Below are positions 1 to 19,867 of a DNA stretch of 64,000 nucleotides, piece by piece. The translations under genes were made by a program, and so were the position numbers. The DNA lies in NCBI GenBank assembly GCA_016800925.1, contig JABCPU010000143.1, positions 1 through 64,000 on the forward strand, given 5' to 3'. This DNA is from Suillus spraguei (lineage: Eukaryota > Basidiomycota > Agaricomycetes > Boletales > Suillaceae). Each line of letters starts with the position of its first letter. Position 1 is the first letter of the stretch. Below the pieces are notes generated by a model. The model worked only from the letters and a program-made list of their open reading frames with translations, was not told the DNA's origin and ran no database searches.

Positions 1-58
1 CTCCATCAAAACCAATCGGTTGTCCGATCTTGTACTCAAATTCTTTGGTGGACGACAT
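1..58 (-). CDS. LTR retrotransposon gag, N-terminus only (runs off window)
   Basis: The minus strand opens with ATG at 58-56 and reads MSSTKEFEYKIGQPIGFDG up to the window edge with no stop. It lies about 200 bp inside the LTR at 256-730, on the side and strand where gag is expected. The short N-terminus ending in a P-x-x-F-D/S-G motif is common in fungal gypsy Gag proteins. Only 19 residues are visible, so Gag identity rests mainly on position. A host gene captured next to an LTR cannot be excluded. Confidence 0.5.
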   Translation of the reverse strand, partial: MSSTKEFEYKIGQPIGFDG

Positions 59-255
59 GGTTAATGGTTCTTCTGATGAGTTATACTTTCTCAGTGCCTA
101 CACGCGCTGTCTTGCTGTCCGTTAGGGCTTTCTTCTGTCAGAGGGCTCCTCTTGACAATCTGCTCAGCATACGCGTACGCTAGTCTACTGATCTGAGTGA
201 TCAGGGTTCAGGGTCGAAGACTGGATAGTCGACGATCAAATTGACTTTAATCTTT

Positions 256-730
256 TGTTACGAACTGGGGTGGCATCACCAGTGACAGTGAAAAGACGCA
301 GACGGTCTGCCGGGAAGTTCTTACAATGTCCAGAAGAGGACAAGGTGAAAGTACAAGGAATGCGTTCCGAGTACGATCAAGGGTCCGGCCTCGATGACAA
401 GTCAAAGAGGTTCTGTGAGAATAGAGACTAAGGCTAAGGAGTGCTTAGACTTAGAGACGATTCAAGACGACTTAGGTTGGAGACCTAAGCGAAGGAGATT
501 CCAGGTAAAACCCAGTAAGATTAAAGTAGCGAATCTACTACAAGTACACTGTGCTTAAATAGGCCAATATGTGCGCACAGACCAAGAGAGACGTGAGAAT
601 ATAAGTGCGTATCCAAAGAAGGAAGGCAACTATAGTACAGATGCGTTGAGCATATGGGTCAGAATCATGTTATGTAATATACAAGGTAAATGAAGTAATA
701 GAATGAATAGGGGCACGTACGATTGTAACA
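256..730 (-). mobile_element. Long terminal repeat, 475 bp, upstream of the gag at 1-58
   Basis: The segment begins TGTTAC and ends GTAACA on the plus strand, a perfect 6-bp inverted terminus of the TG...CA type. The gag-like start at 58 faces away from it, so this is the 5' LTR of a minus-strand element whose body lies left of the window. The leader between LTR and gag (59-255) shows no tRNA-primer complement that I recognise. The second LTR and the target duplication are outside the window. Confidence 0.65.
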
Positions 731-862
731 GGTGGGCCCAGACACATATTAAATTAGACGGGTATTAGACAGGTGGGCTGAGAGTGATATATCAATATTT
801 ATTAGATGGGTGGGCCGAGGGTGGTATAAAATATAGACAGGTGGGCCCATGTGTATGATAAT
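728..862. repeat. Imperfect tandem repeat, period about 35 bp, keyed by ACAGGTGGGC
   Basis: The core (A)GACAGGTGGGC or a close variant recurs at about 728, 766, 805 and 835. Each core is followed by an AT-rich stretch of about 25 bp, giving four diverged units. The array starts at the outer edge of the LTR at 256-730. No coding role is apparent. Confidence 0.6.
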
Positions 863-940
863 TGTAGACATGACGGAGCTGAGGGAGTTGCATATCATCT
901 GAATCAGAGGAGGTAATAAATCACAGTTATTGAGTTCCCA

Positions 941-1318
941 GAGCAGCAGGTGCTCTCTTGACATGGCCCTTTATGGCACTTGGTTGTCTTGTAGAATGTG
1001 GAAACTGGGGTGCGAGGCTTGTGTTGCCCTACAAGACACCCAGTTCCGACCCCTGAAAATCAGATGAAGCATATCAAGTTCCAAGTTCCAAGACCCGGGT
1101 CTCGACACATAATTCAGTCAATACTTTCCATGATAATGGCCAACCAAAGTTGAGATTCTTCTGAAGAGAGCAGCATGTGCTCGCTTGACATGGCCTTTTA
1201 TGGCACTTAGGTTGTCTTGTAGAATGTGGTGCAAAAATTGGTTGCCCTATGAGATGCCAAGTTCCGACCACCAAAATTTGAGTTAAGGGCACTGAGTTCC
1301 GAGACCCAGGTCTCAACA
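941..1318. repeat. Tandem duplication of a ~165 bp segment
   Basis: Positions 941-1110 and 1159-1318 are related copies. Both contain CTTGACATGGCC, TATGGCACTT, TTGTCTTGTAGAATGTGG and GTTCCGACC in the same order and spacing. Both end in a GTTCCGAGACCC-type block. The two copies have accumulated many substitutions and small indels. There is no recognisable coding content. The duplication lies just upstream of the TET/JBP-like gene. Confidence 0.7.
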
Positions 1319-1507
1319 AATGAATATCTGATATTCAGCACACATCCAATCATCTGGTATTTCATTGAGCAATGGATGATAATACATCTTTAAAAGCCAA
1401 CATCATCCAAGGCTCCCTTATCTGATCCTCGCTATCTCCACCCCCTTTAACACCAAAGTCTGGACATCCAGCATTCAGCGTCTGATTTCCCAATATCAAC
1501 TTCCAAC

Positions 1508-2812
1508 ATGAACATTTCTTCCATGTCCACTTCTGACATAAAAATCTGGCGCACTTGGGCCCTGGCCATCACTTATGAAGCAGGGGAATATACCGAACAG
1601 AAATTCAATGCAGAGAAGATTGGAGGAGACCCAGTTATACCTTCTCCGAACCTGGACACTGATCTGGTGATGGCGTGCGATTGCTTGGCTGATGTACTCA
1701 TAAAGGCATGTAAAAATTGCAGTGGGTCTTCCTGCAGATGTTGAAAATTTGTTTGATCATTCAAATTCCTTCATGACAGTTAAGATGCAGATCGATATTG
1801 CAAGATATAGCAAATTGATATCCCCAAAGAACACTGGGCATAATGACGAGAAAGAGGAGAAGTTGCTTGAGAGGTGTTCTCCTGGCCATGAGGGCACAAA
1901 TTTGGTGGACAAACCTGCCACAATTCTCGATGCTTCCAGTACCATCATCACATGGTACCTCCCAGACGCCCTGACCGAGACCACCCAGGTGCGTAATGTA
2001 GATTGTTACTCAATGGATATTGAATATCAAATGGTACCTACAGAAGGAAATTAGGGCAGCCACCAATTTGCTGGGTCCAAGCCTTGAAAAAAGTGTAAAG
2101 GCTGATGGCAATTGGCAATATAATCAAGAATGGTTCAAACAGGGCTCGGAAAATGTTGGGTCAACTCCTGGATGCATCAATTTATCTCTGGCATGGTTTC
2201 AACAGGGCCACGAGGTAGGATCTGATGAGATGGTGATTTCTGGAGTCAAACTCACCAATCCCATAGAATCTGTCAGATCCAGAGGTATCTGCATCATTGA
2301 AGGGACCCTCCTCTGAGAATATCCTCAAAGCTATCGCAAGGCCAGCAGCCATTGCATTGGCGGCACTCAGGGTCATGCATCCTCAGCAGTACTTTGCAGG
2401 GTTATGAGCCTTGTCACACCTCGGAGATAAGGCAGTGAGCAAGGAACTGCCACAGATGCCAGAGACCCTGCAGTACTGGGCATCCGTGTTTAACACCCTC
2501 TCCATCATTTCCAATCAGGAAACCCCCAATCATCGAGACCATTTATCCATTCCTGAATGCTTCAATATTCTCACCACCGTGGGGAACTATTCTAATGCTC
2601 GGATGAGTATGCCAAGCCTTCAGCTGGAATTCAGGTATGATTCCGGCTGTATGATTGTGTTTTCGGGAAGGATTGTCAGACATGGGGTTCATGGAGTGGA
2701 AGGGGATCAGATTGCTTGGGCATGGTATATGAGGGATTCTGTTCACATTTATGCCGTGGTTCCCTCATGTGGATGGGCTAGGGTTGATGGCCGCATACTA
2801 ACCATGGTGTGA
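1508..2812 (+). pseudogene. TET/JBP-like 2-oxoglutarate/Fe(II) oxygenase, decayed
   Basis: The reading continues through introns 1989-2043 (55 bp) and 2215-2266 (52 bp), both phase 0. The product matches the fungal TET/JBP-type 2OG-Fe(II) dioxygenase family, whose better-known members oxidise 5-methylcytosine or thymine in DNA. Landmarks are LAWFQQGHE, RVMHPQQYFAG, NHRDH (HxD iron ligands at 2531-2539), then RIVRHGVHGVEGD (distal His) and AWYMRDSVH. Two lesions break it. One is an extra base in the A5 run at 1712-1716, where a one-base shift restores the family reading. The other is an in-frame TGA at 2405-2407, where homologues carry Arg. Catalytic ligands are still present. Members of this family are known to occur with KDZ transposases, as here (4.9-8.2 kb, converging). 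The start upstream of 1508 is uncertain. Confidence 0.85.
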
Positions 2813-2879
2813 AAGATCAAAGAAGTAGAAAGAGTTGTTACCAATGTTAGTAGCAACACACGAATACCATGTACCAATT

Positions 2880-3850
2880 AGAGCATCAACATTTCCAGAA
2901 CTCAATTCGGAAGTCGAGTTCCATGAATTGAGTCCCAAACTCTGAGTATCTCGGCACTTGGGACTCAATACTCGAAATTCGAGACTCAATAATCAGAATT
3001 CAGCACTCGATAGTCTGAATTCAGGTTCGACACTCGGGACTCAGCAAAATGTGAGGCAGAACAATGTGAGGCAACAGACTTTGATCCACACATTTTGAGT
3101 GTTGAACCCTGAACCCCAGCAGCCGGCACTCAGGACTTGGGACTCATAACAATGTGAAAGATATGAATTCACACATGTTAAGTGCCAAATGCCAAATGCC
3201 AAACCCCGGAACCCAGAACTCAGGACTTGGGACTCAGAATAATGTGAAAGATATTGATTCACACATTTTAAGTGAATATGGGGCAATAAAAAGATTTTAA
3301 TCCACAAATGTTTGGTAGGTATCATTGTGGTCTGGAATCTCGAGTGTCAAATTTTGGGACTTTGCACCCAGCACCTGGCACTCGGGACTCAGAACTAATA
3401 AAGAGACTTTGACCCACACATTGTTAGTGCTGAACCCCAAATCCAAAAATCCGGAAGTCCACAGTTTCGGAGTTTGGCATTCGGGATTCTTCACTCAGGA
3501 CTCAGAAAAATGTGAGGCAAAGAAAAAACTTTGATCCACACATTTTTGGGAGATATCTATTTTGTCTTGAATCTTGAGTGCCAAACCCCAAACCCCAAAA
3601 TCCGGTAGTCCACAATTTCGGGGTTCAGGGTTCGGTACCTAAGATTCGTGACTCAGCACTCAGAAAAATGTGAGGCAATGAAAAAATTTGCTCCACACAT
3701 GTGTGGTAGATATATGTTTCATCTCGAATCGAGAGTTGCTAGTTTCAGGACTTTGCACGCGGCACCCCACATTTGGCACTTGCCATTCGGAAGTCAAGTC
3801 CCATGAAGTGAGTCCCAAACTCTGAGTACCTTGGCACTCGGGCATTCAGG
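2880..3850. repeat. Degenerate repeat array (about six 90-160 bp units) flanked by a ~60 bp direct repeat
   Basis: Units start near 3043, 3150, 3239, 3393, 3507 and 3665. Each opens with AATGTGAGGCAA or AATGTGAAAGAT, followed by TTTGATCCACACAT or a variant, and closes with CACTCGGGACTCAGAA. Between them are runs built from the words CCAAACCCC and TCGGGACTC. A block containing GAGTCCCAAACTCTGAGTA occurs at 2900-2962 and again at 3784-3842. There is no open frame of note. The array separates the TET/JBP-like and KDZ genes, so it may be the internal or terminal region of the same transposon. Confidence 0.7.
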
Positions 3851-3975
3851 ATTTAGGACTCTACATCCGGAACTTGAAATCCAGTCCTTGAAATCTGGAA
3901 CTAAATATTCAGGAGTCAAGACAATCATTTGGATGGAATATAATATTTTACATCATGTATGAAATGAAGACCTCT

Positions 3976-4287
3976 CTATTCTGAACACAGTGAAGAGGAC
4001 TCCACTCCCCTGCCTCTCTTCAATCTCTGTAGCATGTCAGTGTACATCTTCACCTCTGCCATCTTCTCATGGATACCCTCATCTTGCTCCTCCATCAATG
4101 CTACCAGGTGTGCTTGAATCATCTTAAGTCCCATCACTGATGGGCCTGATGAGTCATTTACCTCCTCAGGAAGAACCAAGCCATCATCCTCAACTCCATT
4201 TTCCATCCAATGCTGGTAGTGAACGACACAGGACCTCATGATTTGACCCCATTGCCATGGTTCATTTGGAATTTCAGTGTGTCCCAT
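3976..4287 (-). CDS. Unrecognised ORF downstream of the KDZ transposase
   Basis: An open frame of 103 codons reads from ATG at 4287. Its C-terminal half is predicted helical and rich in Glu, Met and Lys (GLKMIQAHLVALMEEQDEG and the stretch after it). It is on the transposase strand, about 650 bp past the transposase end. The intervening minus-strand DNA (4290-4930) has several short coding-like stretches in different frames. It may be the last exon of a second transposon gene or a decayed C-terminal extension. I do not recognise a domain. Confidence 0.3.
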   Translation of the reverse strand: MGHTEIPNEPWQWGQIMRSCVVHYQHWMENGVEDDGLVLPEEVNDSSGPSVMGLKMIQAHLVALMEEQDEGIHEKMAEVKMYTDMLQRLKRGRGVESSSLCSE

Positions 4288-4935
4288 CCACCATGGAGTA
4301 TTATAGCTGGGAATAATCCGGGATGGATGTCCCGGAGCTGCGACATCATCAAACTGACATAGGTGGGATGAAAAGATGTGGTCTGGAACAGTGTTCTAGG
4401 TGAGCATGGGATACAATGTCAGGATATGAGTGACCAGGCTTGGAACAACAGAAACGATGTTCCTTGCAGCTGAGTACTGCAGGAGTGGTGTAACAAATGT
4501 CTGTCAGAAATCTCAGCATTGCCCACCAAAGTCAGCTGGTCATCCAGTCATCAGTCACTTACATTGATCTCCCATTGCAGCCCAGCCTTAAAGTACATGA
4601 TCCGGGCAGAAGAGGGAGGGTTGTTAGCAGCCTCCATCTGATATTGAGAGATACATGCGCGGATGCACGATGCAGCCATATCCAAAGTACAAGAAATATC
4701 TTGAAGGTTCAGCTCCATGGGTTGCCAGTGATTTCCAGGATGTGGATGCAGGAGTTTCAGGCATGGCTAATGCAAGAGTGTGACACTGGCAGTGAAACTG
4801 ACAGATAGTCAAGAGGTGATGATATGAGTCACTGATGGATAGATAAGAAATTCAAACTCCGACATAGGCTGACCCAGACAATTCCCAGGACTCAATGTTT
4901 GGGTGTCAAATATGGAGTTCATCAGCAAAACAAAT

Positions 4936-7900
4936 TCATTCATGTGCACCATCAATCAATGCGGGCTGCAGGTCTTGAAATGCTGCCTGTGCATCCTGAG
5001 CTAGTAAGGAATACATTTGAGACTGCCTTCCCACATAGCATGCATGACCCGGAAGTTGTTTCAACAATGATTCCCACATCTGGTCACCCCATTGGTTTCC
5101 CTTCCACAAGAAAAAGTTGCATGTCCAATCCATCTCTGATTGGACCAATGATATTTCTTCCTTCCATTGATCCCATAGTGCCTTTGCCTGAAGCCAATGA
5201 ACTCGGTAAACTTGGGATGGGTCCTGTCAGCTCACCACAGGATATATCAAGCATGCCCAAACTCACATTCCTCATTCCACGAATTATCTGGACTGTCCAT
5301 GTCGACTTCCATGGACCAGAACCAAGTGAGGGACTCATTTCACTGACCTCGGGCATTTGGATCGCCGATGGCAGTGCTGAAATTTGTATTTCTGAAGCTG
5401 GTCTGGCCCCAGCTCAAGTTGTATCATTTGCTTCCTGGTTTTTGTATATATACTGGCATGTAGGGATACTGCCTGCTGCACTGATATCACCTGGGACCAC
5501 ACTCGAGTTTTCAGGGCTTGAGATTTGGCTTGCCTCACTGTTGTTCGGAACAGGATAGCCTTGTTGCACAAGTGAATGTGGAGATTGTGCAGCACATCAT
5601 TGGCCTGCCCTTCACAAAGCAACATCTCCAACAGAATCAGATCCTCTGCCATACAGCGTCTGCAATGATCAACCCTGAGGTTTGATGGCAATGGAATTAT
5701 GGTGAGCTCAGGAAAGTTTGTCCATGCATCAGATGTCTCGGTGAAATCTGCTGGGTCATCATTGAGATCATCAAGAATATCTATGTTCAAGTCATCAGGA
5801 TCGTCATGTGCATCAAATCCCTCTCCGACATGGGTAAGAGCAGACCAAGTGAATTCATCTATCTGGCCTTGGAGACGATCGCGTTGCCAGGCAATATCTA
5901 ATCTCTGTGTCTCTGTCGATTGTCTTCCAATTCTTCAGACCTCAATGAGCAATGCAATTGAGCCTCTTCAATTGCCAACCCAATTGATATTCATGTTGCC
6001 ACAGATCTGTAAGAGGGTGCTGCATTATGGGCATTACCCACTTCTAGTAGTCTAAGCTTGATCTCCTTTTTGCTTGGTGCTAAGTGCAAAATTAATTTGG
6101 AGCTCCACAGAGACAAAGAATGTCAACTTACCCTTCTTGATATTGATTTCATATAAATCCATCGCCGCAGGATCCCTGATTCTCCTGGACTGAGCGACCA
6201 TCTCGCTGGCTAACCATTCTGTCTTGAAATTGCCGGGTGCAGCTTCATCAAGTCTGTCGAAAGCCTTGCCACTTTTTGTGATGCCATTCTTTGCCAGCTT
6301 ATATTTCCGGCAAAGAGTCCTTCTCATGCAGATCATCTTGCAGAAATTGGAATTGTTCATCTGATAATCAAGACATTCCTTTCGGTGCAGGGATGACATT
6401 CCCCGAGCAGCAGGGGAAATCAGGTTGAGATGTGCCCATAGGGTCTCCATGATCTCTCCATCAATCCAGCCAATGCCTTCAATAAAATTCGAAGCATATC
6501 GGACATAGCAACTGTCCTGATGTCCATGCACATGCCACAACCCGATTCCAGGAATGATGGTCAGTTCCAGTACCATGTCAAGGTATCAGCTTTGATCCAC
6601 CTGAACCCAAAAGTGCTTGTTGTATTGAGAGTTGATGTCATAGAAGGTGACAGCCCTGGTAATGCCTTCCATGTTGTGCTGGGCAGCCTCACAAAGGGTG
6701 TAGTCCATGTTCATTTGTCTGCAAATGATGCATGGTCAACTAGTGAATGTCGAATGGCATGTTTGGCTTGCCTTTCCCCTTTCTGAAAATCAACCATCGA
6801 GTGAGGGACAAAGCAACCATGCCAGGTGCAGGCAACTCCCCTGATGCCTGTGGACTCGAGCTTGTGCTGTGCCGCATTTGCTTGATTTACCGCCCGGTGA
6901 TTGTTGCAGCTCAATTTTTCCACCATGTCAGCAGCCTCCGCAAGATGCATTTTATACCTGTCCTTTCCAATCCAAGCTCATCTGAAAGCCAAACTTTATC
7001 GAGGGGATTAATGGGATGCAGGTGTTTGGCTTTGAAATTTCCGTCCATCACAAATGACTGGGTGTATTTCCAGCTTGGAGTTCTTATCATCGCCAAGTTC
7101 ACTTCGGTATTGAAGAGGACTCACTCATCAAGTGATTCATCCCCTGACAACGATGAATTAATCCCAGGCTGAGGACATGCCGGGCAAAATAATGCAAGAT
7201 CTCCTGTGTTCGGGATGTCAGAACAATGGCCATAGCCATGTCATTTCATGGTCTTCAACTGCCTCCACTGTCGAGTGACTCTCATGAGCTCTCTGTATCG
7301 ATCCTTACCATGGCCTTTGTCAACATAATGTCCTTTAGATGAAGCAAGAATAGCATTACCAGAACAAGGTGTGGAAACATGCTCGAGGTCATTCGCCGGA
7401 GCTTACTGTAATAGTTCATCGCGGAGGTGCTGCATTCAAGGTTGTCCAATAGAAAATCATCCAGCACTCTGAAGGTAAACATGGTCTTCGGCCTGTTAAA
7501 CAATGCAGGGAAAAATCCATGCCGAAACATTTGAATGTCCGGACTCATGGCATTTGGACAATCACAGCATCAAACCTCGAGGCGGTGAACTCCAGACTTG
7601 TCAATGATGACCATGGTGTTTTCCTTCAGCTGGAAATCAGGTCCCGACACAGATGGAAGATCTTCGGGCTCAAGCTGGTCTTCAGGTTCATCTCCTTCAA
7701 ACAAATCCCACCTATCTGTGAGCACCGGACATTGTTTGCCATCATGCCCAAGGTGTATGATGAGTCCCACATGAGTGAGACAACTCCACTCGAAGAATTG
7801 ACCATTCCATTGACTGATTCAGTGGACTTGACATTTGTAGACCCCATCCTGGTTGCAGATGATGCATCTCCTGTCTTCTGGTGGAGCTTCTCGATCCAGG

Positions 7901-8183
7901 AGGTGATGCAGATATGATTCCTGCCTTGGCAGCCATTGCCTGAGGTAGTCATTTTGACTCTGCATTTGTTATATTTAGCTAATGTTTGAATGACACTCCA
8001 ACATTTAACATGAACTTGCCATGGTTTTTGGGAGTTGCAATGGCTCAAATGAGCCTTGGTCTTGCTCATAAGTATTGTCAGGAAAGTCATCCCAAGGAGG
8101 TGGTGCCTGAACAGGCTGAAGTGTTGGTGATTCTGGGGGAGAGCGAGGCATGGACCTGTAGGCTCATCATCTTGTGCTTGCAA
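4936..8183 (-). pseudogene. KDZ-class DNA transposase, decayed
   Basis: On the minus strand the family order is complete. An N-terminal cysteine-cluster region (near 7850) is followed by WNGQFFEW, LIIHLGHDGK, MFTFRVLDDFLLDN, LALFCPACPQPGIN, WKYTQSFVMDGNF, CNNHRAVNQAN, HGCFVPHSMVDFQKGERQ, FYDINSQY (catalytic Asp near 6637), HVHGHQDSC, IDGEIMETLW, QANDALH-like and FRTTVRQAKSQA motifs, and RVHWLQAKALWDQW. Several GT-AG introns of normal size fit the family reading. In-frame stops occur at 7821-7819, 7572-7570, 7243-7241, 6588-6586 and 5342-5340, with at least one frame change near 6960. Most stops replace conserved Arg or Trp. It is therefore a fossil. KDZ elements are eukaryotic DNA transposons that are expanded in agaricomycetes and often linked to TET/JBP genes. 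Terminal inverted repeats were not found by eye. Confidence 0.88.
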
Positions 8184-8511
8184 GTGGGACCTTGACCCAA
8201 ATCTTTCTACCTTTGCTGCCCCTTGCTTCTACCCTGTGGGATTTTTGCAATGGGGTGCATCTACCTATCTTCATCTTATTTTCTAAAGCTAATGTTGCAA
8301 GCAAAGCATCTGCTCGGGTGGAATGAATTTTTATTACATTATGGTGTCATACAGTCCTGCTGGCTCATTACAAATTTATGTCCATTTATGGCTTCGGGAC
8401 AAATATAGCTCAATTAAGCTACTGTTAGGCTTTTCTCAAAGTTCAACTTCTGACAATTCATTAATACTTCCACCTTGCTTATCCTCAGCCCATTCTGCAA
8501 TCAGATTCACC

Positions 8512-10979
8512 ATGGCAAGGATGGGTCATTCCACTCACTTGACTTCCGGCAGAAATAGGGCACATCAACCACAGACACAGAAGCTCACAGAAAATGAAAT
8601 TTCAGAGTTGAAGAACTACCTGCCTGAGTGGACCACAGCCAAAAGGGGTGAGAAGCGAGGGGTTTTCACTGCAATTGCCAGGGCGGCCAGGTTGTTTGCT
8701 CCTAAAGTCGACCAAGGACAATGGAAAAAGAGGAAGCAGGTGATGTGTCTTCGTTGTGTTGAAAAACTACAATTTTAACATCTTATTCTTCCATCAACTC
8801 TCAGATGTATAAGACTTGGTTGTTCAACAACAAGAAAAAGAAGGAAAGGAAGGACATGATAAAGTATGGGAAGAAATGGACGCCTAGGATGGTGGTCTAC
8901 CAGCAGAACCGCAAAGAGGTGCTAAAGAGGATTGAGGACGAGTCTGGGGCAAAGCCAGGAGATCCTGGTATGTTCAAACATTATCAGGAGGCTGTGAAGA
9001 GAGTCATGGCTGAATTGGATGACAACGAGTTGGAGAAGGCAAAAGAAACAGCAGAAGAATGGTCAATATATGGAGCACTTTTTGAAAGAGATGTGGAGGC
9101 AATGCGGTGTAAAGATACAACCTAGCCTGGGCTGTAGATAAACCACTGCCTAAACTAGTATGTGAGTCTTGCGCTCCATCTAGTCTGCTTCACTTGTAAG
9201 AACAAGAGTGTTCAACCCTAAGGGGGATGCCTATTAGTATGGTCAAGTTCAAGTCTAACTTATGTGCGAAACAAGCGTTGTGGTCAGTGGTAAGTTGCCG
9301 TGGTCAGCGATGATACTGCCGGAACTAGCGTCATGCATAGCGGTGCTACCATGGTCAAGATATGATCAGTAACAGTTGCGTTGAGCGATGGTATCAGCGG
9401 TAGCGGTAAGGTTGCGAGCAGTGCAGGGAAACAGTAAAGAAGTCCATGGTACTTTCAGCAGTAAAGTAGCAGTGTGTGAGAAGTTCAGTCAAATTAACTG
9501 TCAAAAGTCCAGCGGTAACGGAGAACAAGCATGATAGATTAATGAGCAATAAGGAAACTTTAAAGACTATGTCCACTACTGGGTAGATCCAGAGCTAGAC
9601 AATAATCCTGACCTATAGTATGTATGTGCAATGGTGTAAAATCAGGTACTTCTATCGTGCGGGGTACGCAGTGCTTGTATCCTAAATTGTATGTACTCGG
9701 AATACTCTAGGTGAGATCAGTAGTGCTGGAGTGTAGTAACTGCCATAAGTAAACATAGTGTGAGGCGCTGCAGCACGAGGCAACATGTAATAAGGCTTGC
9801 TGTGGAATCAGTGATAACAAACATAAAACAAACGACACACCAAATGGAGCTATGCGGACGCGGCAAGGACATGGAAGGACATCAGTATGTGGAATGAGGT
9901 GCGGCAGTTGGTATGGTGTGCGGTAAGCGTGGGATGCCGCCAGTACTGCTAAAGGGGTAAGACGGCCTTGGACAAGTGGTAACTCCTGTAGACGTGAGAC
10001 GAGTGTCAAAAGGTGGGGTTTTAAGCCCAGCGTCGATATGTTCGTTACAGTGGGATGAGAGTGTTTGTGTTGTCAGCTTGGAAGAATGAACAGGGAGAGG
10101 TTCTGTTCAGGATGTAAGACAATTGTGTCTGTCATCGCCAATCTTTTATCTCAATATATGTATGTGTGCAGGCATGATGATAATGAGGCATTAGGAGATG
10201 GGGACAGCTTCATGAAGACAAAGGACTGGGAGGACATTGAGCCAGTATGGCAGGAGTACGCCCAAGAACAGTTCGGTGAGTGTTTGAACTTTGGATGTGA
10301 GAATGAATTCGTTGATCATCTCAATGATAGGTGCTGGGCATGGGATGGAGGACAACAGGTGAAGGGAGGTTGCAAAAAGTCAGAAAACCAGCTTTCAAAC
10401 TTGACACGGATGGGGATGGGATGCCGTTGCTTCCAGACATCACGGAAATGGAACTTGAGGAGAAGAAGGCCATAGTCAGGGCTTTTCTTACATCACACTA
10501 TTGTGAGTCTTTCATGGCAACATCCGAGACATGGTTGAATGCATGGACACAGGAATATGTTCTGGGAATGACAAGGCTGTCATGCCATAGAGTGCCATCA
10601 TACAAAGTCAGGATGACTTTGTGGCAAGGAAGTATCTTCTGGCAAATATTGACCTGAAGGAGCCTTCGAAGTTGCAAAACTGGGACACGACAGCCTTGCT
10701 CAATTTCTGGTATGCTCAGCAGGAAACAGGAAAAGATTCAACATTCCTGTTCAAAGCATGGAAGAATAAAGATGGGGACTTGGTACCATCTGTGGTATCT
10801 GGCAAGTCGCCATCTCGTCAGACTCGTAAAGTGAGAATGCAGCAGAGGGAACTCTCCAAAGGCCCCAGGATTCATCAACAGAAGCCGAGAGTGATACCGA
10901 CAGTGACACTCATCACAAGGAGGATGACATTGATCATGACTTGGCTGACGGTCGATCCCCGCTGAAGAAACCCAGATGA
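8512..10979 (+). pseudogene. Basidiomycete repeat-associated hypothetical protein, split by a solo LTR
   Basis: Exon 1 (8512-8739) and exon 2 (from 8805) join in frame across a 65 bp intron. They encode a basic protein containing QGQWKKRKQ, KYGKKWTPRMVVYQQNRKEV and KPGDPGMFKHYQEAVKRVM. Reading is cut at about 9107 by a 942 bp LTR and resumes at about 10054 with MRVFVLSAWKNEQGEVLF. Further exons contain DTDGDGMPLLPDIT, ARKYLLANIDLKEPSKLQNW and an acidic tail ending near 10979. A TAG at 10588-10590 sits where relatives read P-W-S, and a one-base frame change precedes the acidic tail. I recall this family as common in Agaricomycetes and often near KDZ genes, but its function is unknown. It lies head-to-head with the KDZ transposase, about 330 bp from its visible N-terminus, so it may belong to the same element. 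Confidence 0.7.
9108..10049. mobile_element. Solo LTR, 942 bp, TGTAA...TTACA
   Basis: The segment begins TGTAA and ends TTACA (5-bp inverted terminus) and contains no open gene. It splits the coding region of the gene at 8512-10979. Removing it together with one flank copy joins AGGCAATGCGG to GATGAGAGTG and restores the frame R-Q-C-G-M-R-V-F. The flanks are GCGG (9104-9107) and GTGG (10050-10053). This is consistent with a 4-bp target duplication in which one copy has undergone C to T. The interior has degenerate GCGGTA/GTGGTCAG words. Confidence 0.72.
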
Positions 10980-11197
10980 ACAGCACATCCATCTTCAGCA
11001 CCCAAGGAGACAGAAGTTCCATGTTCAATGCTGAAGCCCTGCCCAGCCAAGCCAGCCAAAACAGGTGCACTTTTGACATCATGAATGGGCGACCTCCTGG
11101 CCAGGTTGACTGAGGAAGTGGAAGAGAGGAACATGTCGCTGGAATTAAGGAGCATACAGGGCAAGAAAGCTGTGATTGGACCATCCGCAAGGACCAC

Positions 11198-11967
11198 TGT
11201 TAAGACTGTACTCAAGGGTAGAAAGATCCGAAGGGCTTTTGGCCTCAGTTCGTACACTGTGCCCCTTTCTCGAGTAATGCCCCTTATTTCTGGGAGGAGT
11301 TATTCGTCCAAAGACCCAGAAGGGTTTGCGTGACGGATCCGGGTGTCCGAAGGTGTTGGATATGATACGTCCGAAGGTAATTCGGAACGTAAGGAGAGGA
11401 CAGAGATTAAGGCTAGTTTCGGAACGAGTTCCTAACTAGAAACTAATGGAGATGGACTATCCGAAGATAGAGTCGGAGGTATAGGCTATAGGAATCAATC
11501 CTAAGTCTCAGAAGGTGACTTTAAGCGGAGAGTGACTTAAGTCCGGAGGAGGCAGAATGAGTAGAATCTAAGATGATATTCGAACTAAGGTTCTACGGAG
11601 ATCTACAAGTGGTTTATATACAGTAAGTATCTAAGATGGATAATCAGCAAGTCCGGGACTGAGGGCTATGTACGAAGTGTAACGGAAGTCTATTAGTTAT
11701 TGCACAGCGGATCAGTAAGCATGAATCGGAAATGAGCACAGGAAACGGATCAGTAACACAGGACGGAAATATAAACAGCCGGAGTACCGGTAGTAGGAGA
11801 AATGACGAAAGGAGATAGACGCAGATGTTCACCAGGGAGTTAAGGTGCGAGAAGTGAGTACATTCGGATGGGTGGTCCGGACAGGATCTGTGGACCGGAC
11901 GGATATGGAAATGATCGGATCTGGACGGATATGATCGGATCTGAGATTAGAAGTATGGTATATGACA
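11198..11967 (-). repeat. 3' LTR of the chromovirus, 770 bp
   Basis: On the element's strand it runs from TGTCATATACC to CAGTCTTAACA (TG...CA ends). It is collinear with 18326-19067 plus 19842-19867, and with the solo LTR at 19068-19836 in reverse. Near its outer part it contains CGGATATG/GATCGGATCTG direct repeats. It truncates or abuts the 3' end of the gene at 8512-10979. Confidence 0.9.
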
Positions 11968-11970
11968 GTA

Positions 11971-11980
11971 TCCCCCCCTT
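11971..11980 (-). other. Polypurine tract of the chromovirus
   Basis: On the minus strand AAGGGGGGGA lies three bases from the start of the 3' LTR. This is the position where the plus-strand primer of a Ty3/gypsy element is expected. Confidence 0.75.
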
Positions 11981-12162
11981 AGGGCCAAACCCCTGAGGCA
12001 CAAGAAGCGTCGATCCAGATCGGACAAGATTAATGTGAGACGATGGGGAAGTTTGATGGTTGTAGTGCTGAGTCTGTAATCCAACAGATATACGGACGTC
12101 AGACGTCCGAAATGATTCCTACCCCCACTTCATATCCTTGTTAACAAAACTTGTCTCCTAAC

Positions 12163-13141
12163 ATGTCTGGAAAGAAATCCGATGCCCCTAAGTCTGCTGC
12201 TGACCTTGTGGTGGATCTGGAGCAACAACTGGCGGCTGCTAAGGCTGCAGCGGAAGCCGAGGCGGAACGGAAACGGAAAGAGGCGGAGGAGTTGAAGCAG
12301 ATTGAGTTGGCGGAGATCCGGAGGGAAATGGAGGAAAAGAGGCGGAGGGCACTGATTGAGGCTCGGGTGAGTGCTGTGGACTCTCCCAGATCCGGATATT
12401 AATGGATTGGCAAAGGCCAAGGCTGCTCCTGCATCTGGAGCAAAGGATGGGTACTGCTCTCGTTGCGTCACTAAGGGCCGGATGTGCCAGTGGGGTGATG
12501 CTGAGAAGAATGCCATGGTGAGTCGTCCGAAAAACTTTGGATCCGCTGATTTCGACGTTTCGTAGATTAAGTCCTGTGACGTCTGCCGGAAGGACAAGGC
12601 CACTTGCACTTGTCCTGGACGGCCCGGATTCGTTAAGGGGCCTAAGGGCCGGAAGAGGCAGCGTCCTGCTGGTACTCCGTCTCCGAAGGGCAAAGGCAAG
12701 CGCCGTCAGAGGAGTCCTACTCCGGATGTGGCGGACGCGGATGTCTTCTCTAATCCAGTCACTATCAAAGGTACGGATGAGGATTTTGTGGAGTACGATG
12801 ATCAGGCTTGGGTGGCCGCTGCTAATGGCATCATTGCTGAGTTGGCACGGACCAACGGACTTCTCCAAGATGGTATTGCGGCGGCGGAAGGGAGTCGGAT
12901 TGCCATGGAGCGGATGAGCTCCACCATGGAGGCCTTCCTCCAGCAACAGAGGGAATTCCAGGCCCTGCTCATCGAGGAAATCCGGACCGGATTTAGGCTT
13001 TCCGTTTCTGCCGGATCCGACAAGGATGGCGCTGGTGAGGAGATTGGGGAAGAGGTGGCGGATGAGAATGGAGGGGAGATGGCAGATGGGACTGGGGAGG
13101 AGACTGGGGGCGCCGGAGGTGAAATGGAGACTGGTGCTTAG
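12163..13141 (+). CDS. Antisense accessory gene in the chromovirus; coiled coil plus Zn2Cys6-like cluster
   Basis: Three exons (12163-12366, 12416-12517, 12566-13141) join across 49 and 48 bp GT-AG introns, both phase 0. They give 293 codons and a stop with no frame break. Residues 14-68 form an Ala/Glu/Lys/Arg-rich coiled coil. Cysteines at about 82, 85 and 92 and at 106, 109 and 116 give CX2CX6C-X13-CX2CX6C, the layout of a fungal Zn2Cys6 cluster, with the second intron falling in the linker. A Lys/Arg-rich stretch (possible nuclear signal) and an acidic Gly/Glu C-terminus follow. It is convergent with integrase, with stops about 57 bp apart. The surrounding gag-pol is broken while this gene is not. 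The role could be DNA-binding, Gag-like or regulatory, and none is proven. ATG 12163 was chosen because no upstream ATG is in frame. Confidence 0.75.
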
Positions 13142-13198: not shown

Positions 13199-14667
13199 TC
13201 AAGCAATGGGACCAGGCTTGTCCGGATATGCTGAGTGGAAATCCACTACGAGATCTGATGCATTTCCGAGTTCTGTGGCCAGTAGCCAGGAAGTTTCTTC
13301 GTCCGTTCCTTCGTATCCGGACCAACGGACGAGGTATAGAAGTTGGCAGTGGTGCCTACGACGGTCCAGTTTAGAGTCCAGGATTTCGGATATCTTGTAC
13401 TCTGGTTCTCCGTCGACTTCGACTGGTGGCGGAGGAGGTTGGATGCGATTGGGGATGGTGTTCGGAACTGCTGGCTCTAACTGCGAGACATGGAAAACAG
13501 GATGTACGGAATGCATAGAATCCGGAAGTCGGATGGCGAAAGAATGAGTACCCGGGCGGGATATAATTTCGAATGGTCCCAAATTCTTCTCCGAAAGTTT
13601 CTTCGATGGACGAGTGGAGCGGAAGTACTTGGCTTTGACGAAGACTTGTTCTCCAATCTGGAAGTCTGGAGCAGGCTGTCTTTTAGCATCCACGGGTCCT
13701 TGATAGCATTTCTGAGCTTCGGACATCTCATCTCGGAGGAACTGGTGAAGTTTGTTAAGGTCTAGGGCATATTCCTGGGCACGGATGGAGGATAGGTCGC
13801 GTTCCGGATGGATGGAAATGTTCGGATGATAACCTTTATTGGCGAAGAAAGGTGAAACTCCGGTAGTGGCACTTGGAGCATTATTGTATGCAAACTCTGC
13901 GAGGGGCAGCAGCTCAGACCAGTTGTCCTGCTGATAGTTGCAGTAGATCCGGAGGTACTGTTCCAGCATTTGGTTGGCACATTCGGTTTGTCCGTCTCCT
14001 TCGGGATGATATCCGGATGTGAAGTGTAGGACCATGTCCAATGCCTTTCCTAGGGAACGGAAGAAGTGGGATACGAACTCTGTTCCTCGATCCGAGGTTA
14101 CATGGGATGGGACTCCATGCTTAGAGAAGACATGGAGGAGAAATAGGCGGGCAGATCAGGGGAAGTAATGGTATCGTGGGTCGGGACGAATATGGCTTGC
14201 TTGGATAAACGATCTATGATGACGAGGATGGCTGTAAAGCCGGATGAGTCCGGAAGTTGTTCAATGAAATCCATAGAGATGGAATTCCATGGTTTTTCTG
14301 GGACGGGAAGTTGCTTGAGTAGACTGTAGGGCTTATGTCTCGGAACTTTGGCTCGGGCGCAGGATGTGCAGGATCTGACATACTCTTTGACAAAGGCTCG
14401 TACTCCGGGCCAGGTATAGTTGCGTCGGATGAGCTCGAGAGTACGATTCTGTCCGAAATGTCCGGATAGGGGGTGGTCATGGCAATTCCGGAGGATGTGA
14501 AGTCGTAGATCATTGGTATCCAGAATGTAGATGCGGTTGTCACAACAAAGGAATCCACCATCATCTATTGTCCATCTCGGATCCGAAGGAACCGGAAAAT
14601 GTGTTTGTGCAACGGGGTCATTAGGGAGTGCTATCAGAATGTCTTTCCGGAGGTGTTCGGTGTCCAT
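13199..14667 (-). pseudogene. Chromovirus integrase with HHCC finger and chromodomain
   Basis: The minus-strand reading shows an HHCC zinc-binding domain (HDHPLSGHFGQ, then SCTSC), the core SMDFIEQLP (Asp), TSDRGTEF (Asp) and YHPEGDGQTE (Glu), and the GPFEI/HPVFHVSQL region. It ends in a chromodomain containing YKISEILDSK, YLVRWSGYEG and ETSWLLATEL. The first block (to about 14140) and the second block (from about 14120) are in different frames. A one-base change near TATTTCTCC separates them, so the protein cannot be made intact from this copy. The chromodomain in such elements can direct integration to particular chromatin. A further frame change separates it from RNase H upstream. Confidence 0.9.
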
Positions 14668-14723
14668 AAGAACAGCTGCTCTAAGGACCGGAGTTGCTAA
14701 AATGGAAGCTCGTAGGGACGAAG

Positions 14724-16145
14724 CTAATTGTTCTGAAGCAAATATTGGACGGAGGTTGTGAGGGTTAATCTGAGCGTAGCCTTATCCCCCTCTTTAGGGT
14801 AGACGTCCCATCGTCTAGTGAGGGAATCTGGCTTGACTCCGAGTCTTCCAGGACGGTAACGGATAACGAGGTTGAACTGATGGAGGAACTCGGACCAGCG
14901 GGCCTGACGACGGGATAGCAGTTTGGTGGTAGAGAAATACTCAAGGTTCTTGTGGTCCGTGACAACATCTATAGGCTCGGACGAGCCTTCTAGGTAATGG
15001 CGCCAGGTTCGGAACGCAGCATAGATGGCTAGTAGTTCCTTATCATGGACATCATAGTTGAGTTCTGCACCGGACAGTGTCCGGGAGTAAAATGCCACCG
15101 GACGAAGTTCCGAGTCTGGGCACACAATGGATAGTATTCCAGCGATAGCATAATCCGAGGCATCAGTTTCCACAACTATAGGAACATTCGGAATCCAATG
15201 CGTTAGCACCGGAGCGGACGTGAAGCTTTCTTGAGTGCGTTAAATGATTTCCGGCATTCCTCGGAAAAGTCCCAAGTGACGCCCTTGCGAGTGAGTCGAG
15301 TAAGGGGAACCACGATATCCGAGTAGTTGAAGATGAAACGACGATAGAAGTTAGCGAATCCGAGGAAAGATTGGATGTCCTTGACTTTCCGAGGTTCTGG
15401 CCAGTCTATGATAGACTGGATCTTTTCGGACGACATTGTCAAGCCATCCGGAGATAGGAGGTAACCAAGATATTCGACGGAGGATGAATGAAATTCGCAT
15501 TTCTCGGGTTTGGCATATAGTCGGTGTTTACGGAGACGTCGCAAAACTTCTCGACATGTTCCTTATGACTTGCAAGGTCTTGGGAATAGATAAGGATGTC
15601 ATCCAGATATACAACAACACATACGTCCAGCATATCGGAAATACGCTATTGACAAAGCGCTGGAAAGCTGCCGGAGCATTCGTGAGGCCTTCCGGCATCA
15701 CCAACCATTCATAGGAGCCATAGCGCGTACGGAAGGAAGTCTTCCACTCGTCTCCTTCTGTTATCCGGACGAGGTGATATGCAGATCGGAGATCAATTTT
15801 GGTATAAACTTTAGCGCGGCTCGGGGAGTCTAGTAGGTCGGCAATGAGGGGTAACGGATATCGGTCCTTCTTGGTGATGTGGTTAAGGCCGCGGAAATCC
15901 ACACAAAGGCGGAGGGATCCATCCTTCTTTTTGACAAATAGGACGGGGGCTCCGTGGGGAGAAGATGAGGAACGGAGGAGTCCGGACGAGATGTTTTCAT
16001 CAAGGAACTTCCGGAGGGCCTCAGCTCCACCGGAGAAAGAGAGTATATGGTTCCGAGGGCGGACTAGCCCCTTCTTCCAACTCAATCTTGAGATCGTAGG
16101 GTCGATGTGGGGGAAGTTGTCCGGCTTTGCCTTTGTCGAAGACAT
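14724..16145 (-). pseudogene. Chromovirus reverse transcriptase and RNase H
   Basis: RT landmarks are present in order: [38 protein letters not shown], the catalytic [10 protein letters not shown] near 15600, KPEKCEFH and [12 protein letters not shown]. RNase H follows with VVETDASDYAIAGILS and DKELLAIYAAF. The blocks sit in three different frames. Breaks lie near 16063 and 16020 (start of RT), near 15650, near 15545 and near 15210. The last is one T short in a run of three between AAAGC and CACGTC. Many breaks fall in short homopolymers, so assembly error cannot be ruled out for some, but five are unlikely all to be artefacts. Confidence 0.9.
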
Positions 16146-16985
16146 CCGCGAATTCGTGGTAATCGGAAGGGATTCTGGAGAGGTCTGGAGGATCGGATGA
16201 TACGGATGCGGATCGAAGGTTTACTTCGGAGGGACGGAGGTAGATGCTGAACTGAGTAGATCCTTCTAACTTGCAGGCACGGCAAAAGGCCACTGCGTTT
16301 ATCAACGATATGTTAGGGACTGGAGTACCAGCGGAGGGTTCGGATTTGGTCAGAGGCGGAGCCTCTGCCATGGATGGGGTGCTCTGAGGCGACGGAGATA
16401 TTGGAGGGGAGGAATCTTCCTTGGGTGGAATACCCGAAGGTAACAGAGGTGTCGGATTGGATTTTCCTGCCATGGACAGTGTGTCCGGAGGCAGCGGTGA
16501 TGCGGATGGGGTTAATGGCTCTCCCTGTTCAGTAGTTCGGAACTCGATGCTGCCCAATACCCAGTCAATCAACGGATTGTGTCGGGTGAGCCAGCTATAT
16601 CCGAGAACGATATAACATGAGGAATCCAAAGGGGTGACGTAGAACGTGTCGGAAGTGATTACACCGGAGGAGAATCGGACGGATAAGTTTATGGCCTCGA
16701 CAATATTGTTATTGCATGTACCATCAAATAAATGGAGTGGAAGCGGAGGAATCTGATAGGTAGGAATTTTATGTTTTCGGACGAAATCAGTGTCTATGAA
16801 GCAGTGGGAGGAACCACAGTCTATGAGGGCCGGAAAGTCAGATATATTGGAGAAAGATGGAAGAGAGACATATGGACACAGAGAGTTCGGATCAGGAAGA
16901 GTTACAGCGTTGAGTCGTAGTTCCATTGCACGGGTTGGGCCAATGCGACCCTCATCCCGTACGGAGTCAGGAGGGTCGCGGACTA
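16021..16985 (-). CDS. Chromovirus protease and linker (start of pol)
   Basis: After the gag stop the -1 frame is open. It reads through [14 protein letters not shown] into a retropepsin-like domain with the active-site motif [13 protein letters not shown] and the later [10 protein letters not shown] Pro/Ser-rich linker leads to the RT domain, reached by frame changes near 16063 and 16020. Expression would depend on frameshifting at the slippery site at 16986-16992. In this copy the reading ends at 16021. Confidence 0.8.
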
Positions 16986-18275
16986 ATTTTTTGCCTCATC
17001 CGAGGCTTCCGGTTCCGTTTCCGGAGTGAGCACAGTGGCGCGGCCTTTGGCAGCGCGCAAAGTGGATTTGGTGCATTCCCGGGCAGTGTGACCAGGTCCG
17101 CCGCAGAACATACAGAGCTTTTTGTCAAAACGTCTCTGACGCTCCTGGGTGGTTAGCTTTCCGTCTGTACCAACAACACTAGGGAGATCCGAAACTTTCG
17201 GGGTAGAGGATGTTGTGGAGTATGTGGGTTTATTGAATCTGGGCGTATCGGATCCGGATGAGTTGGAGTTCGTCCGGTCGGATGTTGACTGCCTGGGAGG
17301 ATTGGAAGAGGTGGTTCTACTCTCTCGGGTGACTTCGCCCCTCCGTTCCCAGTAATGGGCGTCGATGGTCTGGGCGAGAGTCTTGAACTCCGAAAGGGTA
17401 GTGGGCTTACCCATGCGACTAATCTCATCTTTGATTCGAGCCGGAAGTCCATTGTAGAATTGGCGTCATAGGGCTCCGTCTCCCCATTCGCGTACTTGGG
17501 AGGCAAGTCGCTGGAATTCTACAACGTACTTGTTGATGCGTTGTCCGTCACGCATGTGGAGTTGTTCTAACTGCATCTCTGCGTCTCCAGAGGGATCATG
17601 TGGTCCGAAATTGGTTTGGAGCTCGAGCATGAACTCGGAGTAGTCATCCATCCAGTCCGGATGGTCGCTATATCCGTCCGAAAGGAGGTCTGGTTCAAAC
17701 CACTTGAGAGCCATACCCTTAAGGTAGGATTGGGCGAAATTGACTTTAGCGCGTCCGGAACGGAAAGCGCTAGGTTTGCTCTGGAAGTTGAGCTCACATT
17801 GGACGAAGAATGCCCGGAGCTTGCGAGGTTCGGACCCATCAAAGGTATCTGGCTCACGGACTTTGACTTTGCTATCATCCGAGGTGGGGGTGCGACGGCT
17901 ACTGCGAGCGAGGTGGTTAATGGCTACGGATAGTTGGGCTAGGACCCGGTCCTGAGGGTTTAGGTGGATTTTATCTTCTTCATCCTCCAGGTCCTCGTTG
18001 TCCAGATCATCAACTTCATCATCTGGTAGGTTACTGCGCAGCTCATCATCAAAGCGAATGGTCGGGCGCGAATTGGAGTCTGGGTTATCCGGGTTCCGAG
18101 TTGGTGTTATCGGATCCAGTCTGACTTGTCGGGCGGAGATACTTTGACCTATGTCGCTCATGCTTGCGCGGCGTTGAGAGAAACTGGTAAATGTTTGGAC
18201 GATGGGTGTGGGATCTCGTTGGATCGGACCAAGTCCGGCTCCTCGGAGTGTGTTCTGAGCTTTACGGGGAGGCAT
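16983..18275 (-). pseudogene. Chromovirus Gag with CCHC zinc knuckle, one premature stop
   Basis: Reading starts at ATG 18275 with MPPRKAQNTLRG and crosses the retrotransposon Gag fold (FDGSEPRKLRAFFVQCELNF, then FAQSYLKGMALKWFEP). After a Ser/Thr-rich stretch it ends with the nucleic-acid-binding knuckle CMFCGGPGHTARECTKS (CX2CX4HX4C). A single in-frame TGA at 17468-17466 interrupts GDGAL-(stop)-RQFYNGLPARI, where an Arg (CGA) would be the simplest ancestral codon. The frame is otherwise open to the stop at 16983. The start was chosen as the first ATG after the 5' LTR and short leader. Confidence 0.88.
16986..16992 (-). promoter_or_regulatory. Gag-pol -1 frameshift slippery heptamer (A AAA AAT) overlapping the gag stop
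   Basis: On the minus strand the gag frame ends GCA AAA AAT TAG. The heptamer A AAA AAT fits the X XXY YYZ rule for -1 frameshifting. Slipping back one base moves reading into the pol frame (next codons TTA GTC CGC GAC), which stays open into protease. I did not compute a downstream RNA structure. Confidence 0.65.
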
Positions 18276-18325
18276 GATATGGGATGGTTGCTAAGTTACT
18301 CGGAAAGGTTTGAGTTCGAATATAC

Positions 18326-19867
18326 TGTTAAGACTGTACTCAAGGGTAGAGAGATCCGAAGGGCTTTGGCCTCAGTTCGTACACTGTGCCCCTTTCTCAA
18401 GTAATGCCCTTTATTTCAGGGAGGAGTTATTCGTCCGAAGACCCGGAAGGGGTTGCGTGACGGATCCGGGTGTCCGAAGGTGTCGGATATAATACGCCGA
18501 AGGTAATTCGGAACGTAAGGAGAGGAAAGAGATTAAGGCTAGTTTCGGAACGAGTTCCTAACTAGAAACTAACGGAGATGGACTATCCGAAGATAGAGTC
18601 GGAGGTATGGACTATAGGAGTCAATCCTAAGTCTCGGAAGGTGACTTAAAGCAGAGAGTGGCTTAAGTCCGGAGGAGGCAGAATGAGTAGAATCTAAGAT
18701 GATATTCGAACTAAGGTTCTACGGAGATCTACAAGTGGTTTATATACAGTAAGTATCTAAGACGGATAATCAGCAAGTCCGGGACCGAGGGCTATGTACG
18801 AAGTGTAACGGAAGTCTATTAGTTATTGCACAGCGGATCAGTAAGCATGAATCGGAAATGAACACAGGAAACGGATCAGTAACACAGGACGGAAATATAA
18901 ACAGCCGGAGTACCGGTAGTAGGAGAAATGACGAAAGGAGATAGACGCAGATGTTCACCAGGGAGTTAAGGTGCGAGAAGTGAGTACATTCGGATGGGTG
19001 GTCCGGACAGGATCTGTGGACCGGACGGATATGGAAACGATCGGATCTGGACGGATATGATCGGATCTGTCATATACCATACTTCCAATCTCAGATCCGA
19101 TCATATCCATCCAGATCCGATCATTTCCATATCCGTCCGGTCCACAGATCCTGTCCGGACCACCCATCCGAATGTACTCACTTCTCGCACCTTAACTCCC
19201 TGGTGACCATCTGCGTCTATCTCCTTTCGTCATTTCTCCTACTACCGGTACTCCGGCTGTTTATATTTCCGTCCTGTGTTACTGATCCGTTTCCTGTGTT
19301 CATTTCCGATTCATGCTTACTGATCCGCTGTGCAATAACTAATAGACTTCCGTTACACTTCGTACATAGCCCTCGGTCCTGGACTTGCTGATTATCCGTC
19401 TTAGATGCTTACTGTATATAAACCACTTGTAGATCTCCGTAGAACCTTAGTTCGAATATCATCTTAGATTCTACTCATTCTGCCTCCTCCGGACTTAAGC
19501 CACTCTCCGCTTTAAGTCACCCTCCGAGACTTAGGATTGACTCCTATAGTCCATACCTCCGACTCTATCTTCGGATAGTCCATCTCCGTTAGTTTCTAGT
19601 TAGGAACTCGTTCCGAAACTAGCCTTAATCTCTTTCCTCTCCTTACGTTCCGAATTACCTTCGGACGTATTGTATCCGACACCTTCGGACACCCGGATCC
19701 GTCACGCAACCCCTTCCGGGTCTTCGGACGAATAACTCCTCCCTGAAATAAAGGGCATTACTCGAGAAAGGGGCACAGTGCACGAACTGAGGCCAAAGCC
19801 CTTCGGATCTCTCTACCCTTGAGTACAGTCTTAACAGGATCTGAGATTAGAAGTATGGTATATGACA
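18326..19867 (-). repeat. 5' LTR of the chromovirus, interrupted by a nested LTR
   Basis: Positions 18326-19067 plus 19842-19867 together rebuild a 768 bp copy of the LTR at 11198-11967. A solo LTR of the same family sits between the two pieces, flanked by GGATC on both sides (19063-19067 and 19837-19841). Confidence 0.9.
19068..19836 (+). mobile_element. Nested solo LTR (769 bp), same family, opposite orientation
   Basis: It runs TGTCATATACC...CAGTCTTAACA on the plus strand, opposite to the LTR it entered, with a perfect 5-bp target duplication GGATC. With the host LTR it forms an inverted repeat with arms of about 742 bp (18326-19067 and 19094-19836) and a 26-nt spacer. Open frames at 18955-19206 on the two strands mirror each other for this reason and are not genes. 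Confidence 0.92.

Follow-up and report, generated by a model that had tools for sequence, protein, structure and literature searches.

How does a spliced gene come to stand intact on the antisense strand of a retrotransposon whose own genes are broken, and what might its product do? The question is raised by a 64,000-nucleotide stretch of the Suillus spraguei genome (assembly GCA_016800925.1, contig JABCPU010000143.1, positions 1 to 64,000), hereafter the window, in which a minus-strand Ty3/gypsy element of the chromovirus kind carries, between the stop codon of its integrase and its 3' long terminal repeat (LTR), a plus-strand gene of three exons (Table 1). The gene is an integral part of the element and is under purifying selection about as strong as that on the integrase. 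The best explanation of the whole, to which we assign a probability of about 0.5, is that it encodes a DNA-binding accessory protein recognising its own element family.

The structure given in the initial annotation was confirmed in the sequence: three exons, introns of 49 and 48 bp, 293 codons (293 amino acids) without a lesion, and cysteines spaced C82-X2-C85-X6-C92-X13-C106-X2-C109-X6-C116, on the strand opposite to gag-pol. Gag, protease, reverse transcriptase and integrase were found in the order that defines a chromovirus, and a chromodomain match lies in the expected place after the integrase, weak as it is (E 1e-4, 22.6 bits with a cut-off of 25.1). Gag-pol is divided among eight consecutive open reading frames (ORFs), which amounts to about seven frame breaks and agrees with the lesion count of at least seven made at the outset. 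At the gag-pol lesion rate, 1.2 lesions would be expected in 882 nt and an undamaged gene would occur with a probability of about 0.30; the intactness of the window copy therefore tells little. By itself it is weak evidence, whereas the conservation seen across the family is far beyond chance. The window copy also has an insertion of two residues at the cysteine region, such that the codon for C116 is gapped in 37 of 38 copies, where C118 substitutes for it.

The genome searched comprises 86.2 Mb in 1256 contigs. DNA copies were the best 40 of 220 candidates scored, a set that includes the window copy and over-represents younger copies. In 40 of the 40 copies read, the gene stands beside the integrase end in the identical antisense orientation, between integrase and LTR as first described, with the LTR found on the far side in 39; the sole copy without it, L040, is cut by a contig end. 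L040 was excluded from all codon counts and L027, whose integrase is cut off, also from the codon-pattern analyses. Start codon, both splice donors, both acceptors and stop codon are kept in all 39 full copies. This is as expected under the proposal that an RNA-copied element can keep an intron-containing gene only on its antisense strand, where the introns are not removed from the sense RNA, and the codon pattern fits splicing as well. The gene is fully open in 24 of the 39 full copies and carries frameshifts in the other 15. Deletions of one base are frequent among L001-L039, in exons and integrase alike (35 in the exons of 38 copies, with L005 as reference); some of them may be assembly errors, and lesion counts for single copies need care. 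An apparent count of one intact integrase segment in 38 copies proved to be an artefact of the window copy's frame break at the segment edge and was not used.

A protein search of the genome gave 217 matches, the best 134 of 459 candidates being scored. For the pairing with the integrase matches, 134 of the protein matches were used, the later ones being pieces of exon 1, together with four matches from the DNA search. A gene match was found no more than 2.5 kb downstream of the integrase in 95 of the 125 integrase matches listed, on the opposite strand in 95 of 95. Twelve of the other 30 were read, and 11 held the gene or a piece of it (short pieces only in L060), the exception being L059. 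Taken from the side of the gene, a listed integrase adjoins 94 of the 134 gene matches listed; nine of the other 40 were read, with an integrase in eight. The layout is also kept in seven of eight distant copies (L041-L048), L041 being without an integrase within the 2.7 kb examined. Diverged subfamilies of the same genome, L041 and L057, show about 57% and 52% identity over the protein stretch that matched, and both are CpG-decayed. These counts answer, for this genome, the question raised at the outset whether the gene always sits antisense beside chromodomain gypsy elements.

Selection is evident from the codon pattern among copies. The ratio of nonsynonymous to synonymous diversity (piN/piS) is 0.101 for the gene (95% interval 0.061-0.163) and 0.116 for integrase plus chromodomain (0.075-0.177), and the Nei-Gojobori ratio of nonsynonymous to synonymous substitution (dN/dS) is 0.098 in the spliced frame, far from the neutral value near 1 that would have spoken against a selected protein. 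Read in its five other ways, the spliced sequence gives a dN/dS of 0.15, for a shadow frame that shares its third positions, or values above 2; without splicing, the six possible readings range from 0.31 to 1.7. Where each allele of a variant occurs in four copies or more, the change is synonymous in 24 cases and nonsynonymous in two; with singletons included, the numbers are 70 and 47, on a background of 204 synonymous sites in 879. Outside CpGs, diversity by codon position is 0.0025, 0.0024 and 0.0274, third positions thus varying about 11 times as much as first and second, and the introns, at 0.034 and 0.039, vary like third positions. An in-register stop occurs in none of 38 copies. Other causes of this pattern were tried and rejected: coding on the sense strand, since every one of 38 copies has a stop at 12708 in the opposite-strand shadow frame; CpG decay, since the third-position excess persists with CpGs masked; and allelic or segmental duplicates, since the 40 loci fall into 36 distinct flank groups and piN/piS with one copy per group is 0.094 for the gene and 0.123 for the integrase. 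We regard it as nearly certain that the element encodes a protein under selection. The "separate selection" of the initial annotation stands insofar as the gene is selected. It does not stand as a deduction from a dead copy, for selection acts in the propagating family, with a strength about equal to that on the integrase.

The protein itself offers a first indication of function. Its six cysteines form two CX2CX6C triads in 38 of 38 copies. Both triads are present in 12 of the 62 database proteins scanned, the others having one or none and many of these being short. In Zn2Cys6 domains (PF00172) the linker between the triads is 5-12 residues long; the window protein, with 13, lies outside this range, and the 12 homologues with both triads have 13 or 14. 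The window protein has no match to the Pfam Zn_clus model. Five of eight homologues match it at E values up to 10, one of the eight above the cut-off (P0015, 21.2 bits against 21), and the best stretch is always the second triad aligned to the first half of the model. In the predicted structure of homologue P0016, residues 97-136 fit 1cld, which we take to be LAC9, at 1.7 A over 33 residues; the long N-terminal helix of the same model agrees with the coiled coil that had been placed ahead of the cysteines. Pfam gave no bZIP match in the window protein or the eight homologues, a sequence search of solved structures returned one match only (E 0.38), and a scan of viral contigs yielded eight pattern matches and no relative. 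The conserved cysteines suggest a Zn2Cys6-like module with its halves swapped, and the protein is labelled Zn2Cys6-like here, not placed as a member of PF00172. DNA binding by the zinc module is predicted, and we consider it likely. Three protein searches, with the top 7989, the top 7991 and 2866 candidates scored, gave at least 10, at least 62 and 100 related proteins; the homologues looked for at the outset in other basidiomycetes thus exist in Suillus and Rhizopogon. Suillus species named among them are luteus, spraguei, bovinus, cothurnatus, brevipes, decipiens, occidentalis, tomentosus, placidus, paluster, variegatus and hirtellus, and one named relative, Rhizopogon vesiculosus, is not a Suillus. 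Among the matches listed there is no named organism outside Suillineae, no host family and no plant protein.

A second indication lies in the DNA of the element, which is saturated with the word CGGA/TCCG. The motif was discovered when TCCGG was spotted by eye, after which all words of five to seven letters and then of four letters were counted. CGGA/TCCG occurs 264 times against 83 expected from dinucleotides and is found in the LTRs, in gag and pol and in the antisense gene alike. There is a strong preference for the palindrome TCCGGA, with 28 sites where 3.6 would be expected; under a higher-order model the five- and six-letter words are unremarkable, as expected for a unit of four letters. 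TCCGG is found zero times in the 194-bp leader. Codon usage was rejected as the cause, the motif occupying all three codon frames with a z of 11.7 over synonymous-codon shuffles, and UNCG tetraloops are not favoured, the top seven-letter words being ATCCGGA and GTCCGGA. The density of CGGA is 33.7 per kb in the window element and 2.4-10.5 in 11 control loci, namely seven element-free copia loci and four further gypsy loci whose integrases show 35-37% identity; the copia loci L066, L067 and L069, at 7.0-13.9 per kb, are partly covered by this element and were dropped from the controls. The ratio of observed to expected CGGA is 0.68-1.04 in the seven control loci for which an expectation was computed, and 1.38 (1-11237) and 0.97 (19900-64000) in the rest of the window. 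In older, CpG-depleted copies CGGA stands at 3.2 (L043), 2.7 (L046), 1.2 (L041) and 2.0 (L057) times expectation. Of its CpG-decay products, TGGA reaches 2.1 in L043, 1.75 in L041 and 1.8 in L057, against 0.6-1.3 in seven controls, and CAGA reaches 1.7 in L043 and 1.65 in L041, against 0.9-1.3; L046 lies scarcely above the control level in decay products, and for the window element itself the TGGA value is 1.4. Because CGGA or its decay products are in surplus in the older copies, the motif seems to be old.

Ahead of the gene, next to a TATA-like GATATA, lies a palindrome of the form CGG-N11-CCG, which is the form of the GAL4 site. Its sequence, CGGACGTCAGACGTCCG, ends 53 bp ahead of the ATG; of 39 copies, 33 have it unchanged and six with a single base altered, and among the eight distant copies it can be recognised in six when C/T and G/A changes, but no others, are allowed. 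That CGGA is the target of the protein is a prediction that we hold to be slightly better than even.

The presence of a Zn2Cys6-like protein gene in an element full of CGGA suggests self-recognition. Zn2Cys6 proteins as a rule form dimers, held together by a coiled coil, that recognise CGG triplets, pairs of CGG being their usual site, as stated in excerpts of a published account (PMC5559640). The model that we propose is that of an accessory gene belonging to a chromovirus family of Suillineae. We infer that it is expressed antisense to gag-pol from a promoter of its own beside the 3' LTR, that its transcript is spliced twice in vivo, and that the product would be a zinc-binding protein of the nuclear, DNA-binding type, in which a coiled coil at the N terminus would be followed by a Zn2Cys6-like cluster with swapped halves, then by a basic stretch and a conserved helix, and the tail would be acidic. 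This protein would recognise the CGG-containing sites that saturate its own element and would in this way act on its own family. The most likely effect may be the lifting of silencing or the driving of transcription, and activation or anti-silencing is put forward here only tentatively. The palindrome between the TATA-like box and the ATG would allow the protein to control its own gene. An action on the DNA of the element or of the host had been envisaged at first; the CGGA saturation points to the element's own. One puzzle for the self-recognition model is that the antisense mRNA is not the RNA that is packaged, and a purely trans-acting protein is not expected to be kept as strictly as the integrase; the puzzle would disappear if active source copies were few or if the protein acted locally. 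An unspliced message would stop at the acceptor of intron 2, whose TAG is in frame, and would encode the first cysteine triad only, possibly as a second product.

Several results weigh against self-recognition, and they favour instead a gene that is real and selected but to which the CGGA saturation is unrelated, the latter being an RNA-level signal, a codon-independent mutational bias or the site of a host factor. Protein and motif are linked solely by the published preference of Zn2Cys6 proteins for CGG. In 35 copies (L002, L008, L027, L039 and L040 excluded), constraint on the motif was tested at the population level and was not significant: motif CpGs vary about like other CpGs (p 0.74), and the lower variation of the other motif bases did not reach significance by permutation (p 0.09 and 0.11). 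The palindrome is at least as variable as its surroundings and is one of five perfect inverted repeats with 8-bp arms in the element; it also contains GACGTCA, a possible site for a host bZIP protein. However, the 11 control loci from other families lack the enrichment, which in this element extends through LTR and coding DNA and all frames. We consider an unrelated motif unlikely, if still to be taken seriously.

Were the protein to bind CGGA sites, it might also act as a repressor or copy-number brake in the manner of HBZ of human T-cell leukaemia virus type 1 (HTLV-1) or of the APH proteins of related HTLVs, which damp the 5' LTR of their viruses, shutting off LTR transcription and its own gene. 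The position of the palindrome directly downstream of the TATA-like box would suit such a role, and antisense retroviral proteins often inhibit LTR activity, according to excerpts of one source (PMC10186651). However, a piN/piS of 0.10 would be unexpected if the copy carrying the gene gains little, and the coiled coil and acidic tail suit an activator equally well; a brake appears decidedly unlikely. A structural partner, that is, a second Gag- or nucleocapsid-like protein that would coat the RNA or cDNA of the element by means of its CX2CX6C zinc modules, had been among the first suggestions and is not favoured. Its selection is about equal to that on the integrase, as such a role would have it, and on the sense strand TCCG outnumbers CGGA about two to one (173 and 91), as might be expected of an RNA or single-stranded target, with gag reversed (17 and 22). 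However, both strands lie above chance and the palindromic TCCGGA is preferred, the Pfam match, partial as it is, is to the Zn2Cys6 cluster, and CCHC knuckles differ from CX2CX6C in the spacing of their cysteines. We regard this role as improbable. A host gene captured by the element, or domesticated from it, is very improbable: the introns are host-like, and 40 of the 134 gene matches have no listed integrase beside them, nine of these having been read, but all 40 DNA copies read sit in elements, the 94 gene matches with an adjoining integrase and the eight found among the nine read speak for the element, and the protein searches listed neither a host family nor a named organism beyond Suillineae. 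Transposon antisense transcripts may act as RNA, as excerpts of one source have it (PMC7264820), but an RNA role with an incidental ORF is scarcely credible here and, as sole explanation, is refuted by the codon pattern, the divergence being mostly synonymous in a spliced frame that changes with the introns and the protein being conserved among Suillus species, so that of the antisense regulator first imagined the pure RNA form is unlikely.

The LTRs of the element are identical at 685 of 708 aligned bases (96.8%, 23 differences). Another LTR of this family, at 19067-19840, faces the 5' LTR in head-to-head orientation. The two share 98.4% identity over 742 aligned bases, and the 5' LTR seems to be truncated by the other at its outer end; 18326-19840 is in consequence a near-perfect inverted repeat with arms of 573 nt, 99% complementary and 22 nt apart. 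Elsewhere in the window, 3112-3689 holds direct repeats of 66-73 nt in two families, 60-86% alike, and a minus-strand run of ORFs at 3976-8228 resembles, by eye, a large KDZ-type fungal transposase that has decayed.

Table 1. Parts of the element and of its antisense gene, in window coordinates.
Feature	Position	Strand	Remarks
3' LTR	11198..11968	-	polypurine tract just outside, ~11970-11980
Leader and presumed promoter of antisense gene	11969..12162	+	194 bp; assigned by position only
TATA-like GATATA	12087..12092	+	adjoins palindrome
CGG-N11-CCG palindrome	12093..12109	.	17 bp; candidate binding site or operator
Exon 1	12163..12366	+	68 codons; N-terminal long helix / coiled coil (helix from model of homologue P0016)
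Intron 1	12367..12415	+	49 nt, GTGAGT..AAG; kept in 39/39
Exon 2	12416..12517	+	34 codons; first Cys triad, CX2CX6C
Intron 2	12518..12565	+	48 nt, GTGAGT..TAG; separates the two Cys triads
Exon 3	12566..13141	+	second Cys triad, basic stretch, conserved YDDQAWVAAAN helix, acidic tail, stop
Integrase, C-terminal part	13199..14155	-	SH3_Tf2-1 and weak chromodomain match; stop at 13199
Pol: protease, reverse transcriptase, integrase H2C2	14098..16995	-	broken, spread across several ORFs
Gag with capsid and CCHC knuckle	16983..18290	-	spread across two ORFs
5' LTR	18326..19069	-	outer end shortened

Antisense accessory genes are already known, from Boty, Grande and Retand. Zhao, in 2011, is said to have described brtn, an antisense extra gene in Boty-like chromodomain gypsy elements of Botrytis cinerea; as excerpts of citing papers describe it, brtn resembles the present gene in being an antisense extra gene of a fungal chromodomain gypsy element and differs in its ascomycete host. 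In plants, the accessory ORFs termed aORF-3R, which are antisense and located between pol and the 3' LTR, include gene23 of maize Grande and ORF4 of Silene Retand, with further examples in rice RIRE2 and bean PvRetro13 (excerpts of PMC7264820 and PMC11963269). The Suillus gene shares their place and orientation and, among the matches listed, is present in most copies of its family, as they are in theirs, and nuclear or DNA-related functions are predicted for several of the plant proteins. It is set apart, by description, in belonging to a fungal chromovirus and in having two introns, a Zn2Cys6-like module, measured codon selection and saturation with a motif of its own. Tcn1-like chromoviruses occur in fungi and plants, basidiomycetes included, and a figure legend marks an additional ORF of unknown function (PMC2864245); the likeness is to that legend, the text of the survey containing neither "antisense" nor Suillus. 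HBZ and APH are likewise antisense, spliced regulators arising from the 3' LTR end, HBZ being of a nuclear DNA-binding type, whereas HBZ is a bZIP protein without a zinc cluster and belongs to primate retroviruses, as described in excerpts (PMC10186651).

The VANC proteins of the Arabidopsis VANDAL DNA transposons lift silencing through family-specific motifs (excerpts of PMC5735166 and PMC10398659). As there, an element-encoded protein is paired here with a short motif that is enriched in its own family and is rare elsewhere, in this case in the 11 control loci and the rest of the window. In contrast, VANDAL elements are DNA transposons with the motif in non-coding tandem repeats, whereas here it is dispersed through coding and LTR DNA, and binding of the motif by the Suillus protein is a prediction, the likeness being one of description. 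With fungal Zn2Cys6 factors such as GAL4, PUT3, Leu3 and Pho7 the protein shares two CX2CX6C triads, a nearby coiled coil and candidate sites of the CGG type; it differs in its linker of 13-14 residues, in the match of its second triad to the first half of the Pfam model and in being encoded by a retrotransposon. It is possible, if short of probable, that we are dealing with self-recognition or anti-silencing by a retroelement, in which an antisense-encoded zinc-cluster regulator with swapped halves meets CGGA saturation that includes coding DNA, by a VANC/VANDAL-like logic that would have evolved independently. Among the matches listed from the open-licence literature of PubMed Central, no antisense zinc-cluster gene is reported in a basidiomycete retrotransposon. 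New in the present case are the lineage, the introns, the swapped-half zinc-cluster module, the proof at codon level and the self-motif.

What antisense genes do in LTR retrotransposons is an open question, their function being stated as not known in excerpts of one source (PMC7264820), and in the present family selection, a module and a predicted DNA target are found together. If the self-recognition model is true, retrotransposons would also carry sequence-specific recognition of themselves, with the address written into their own coding sequence.
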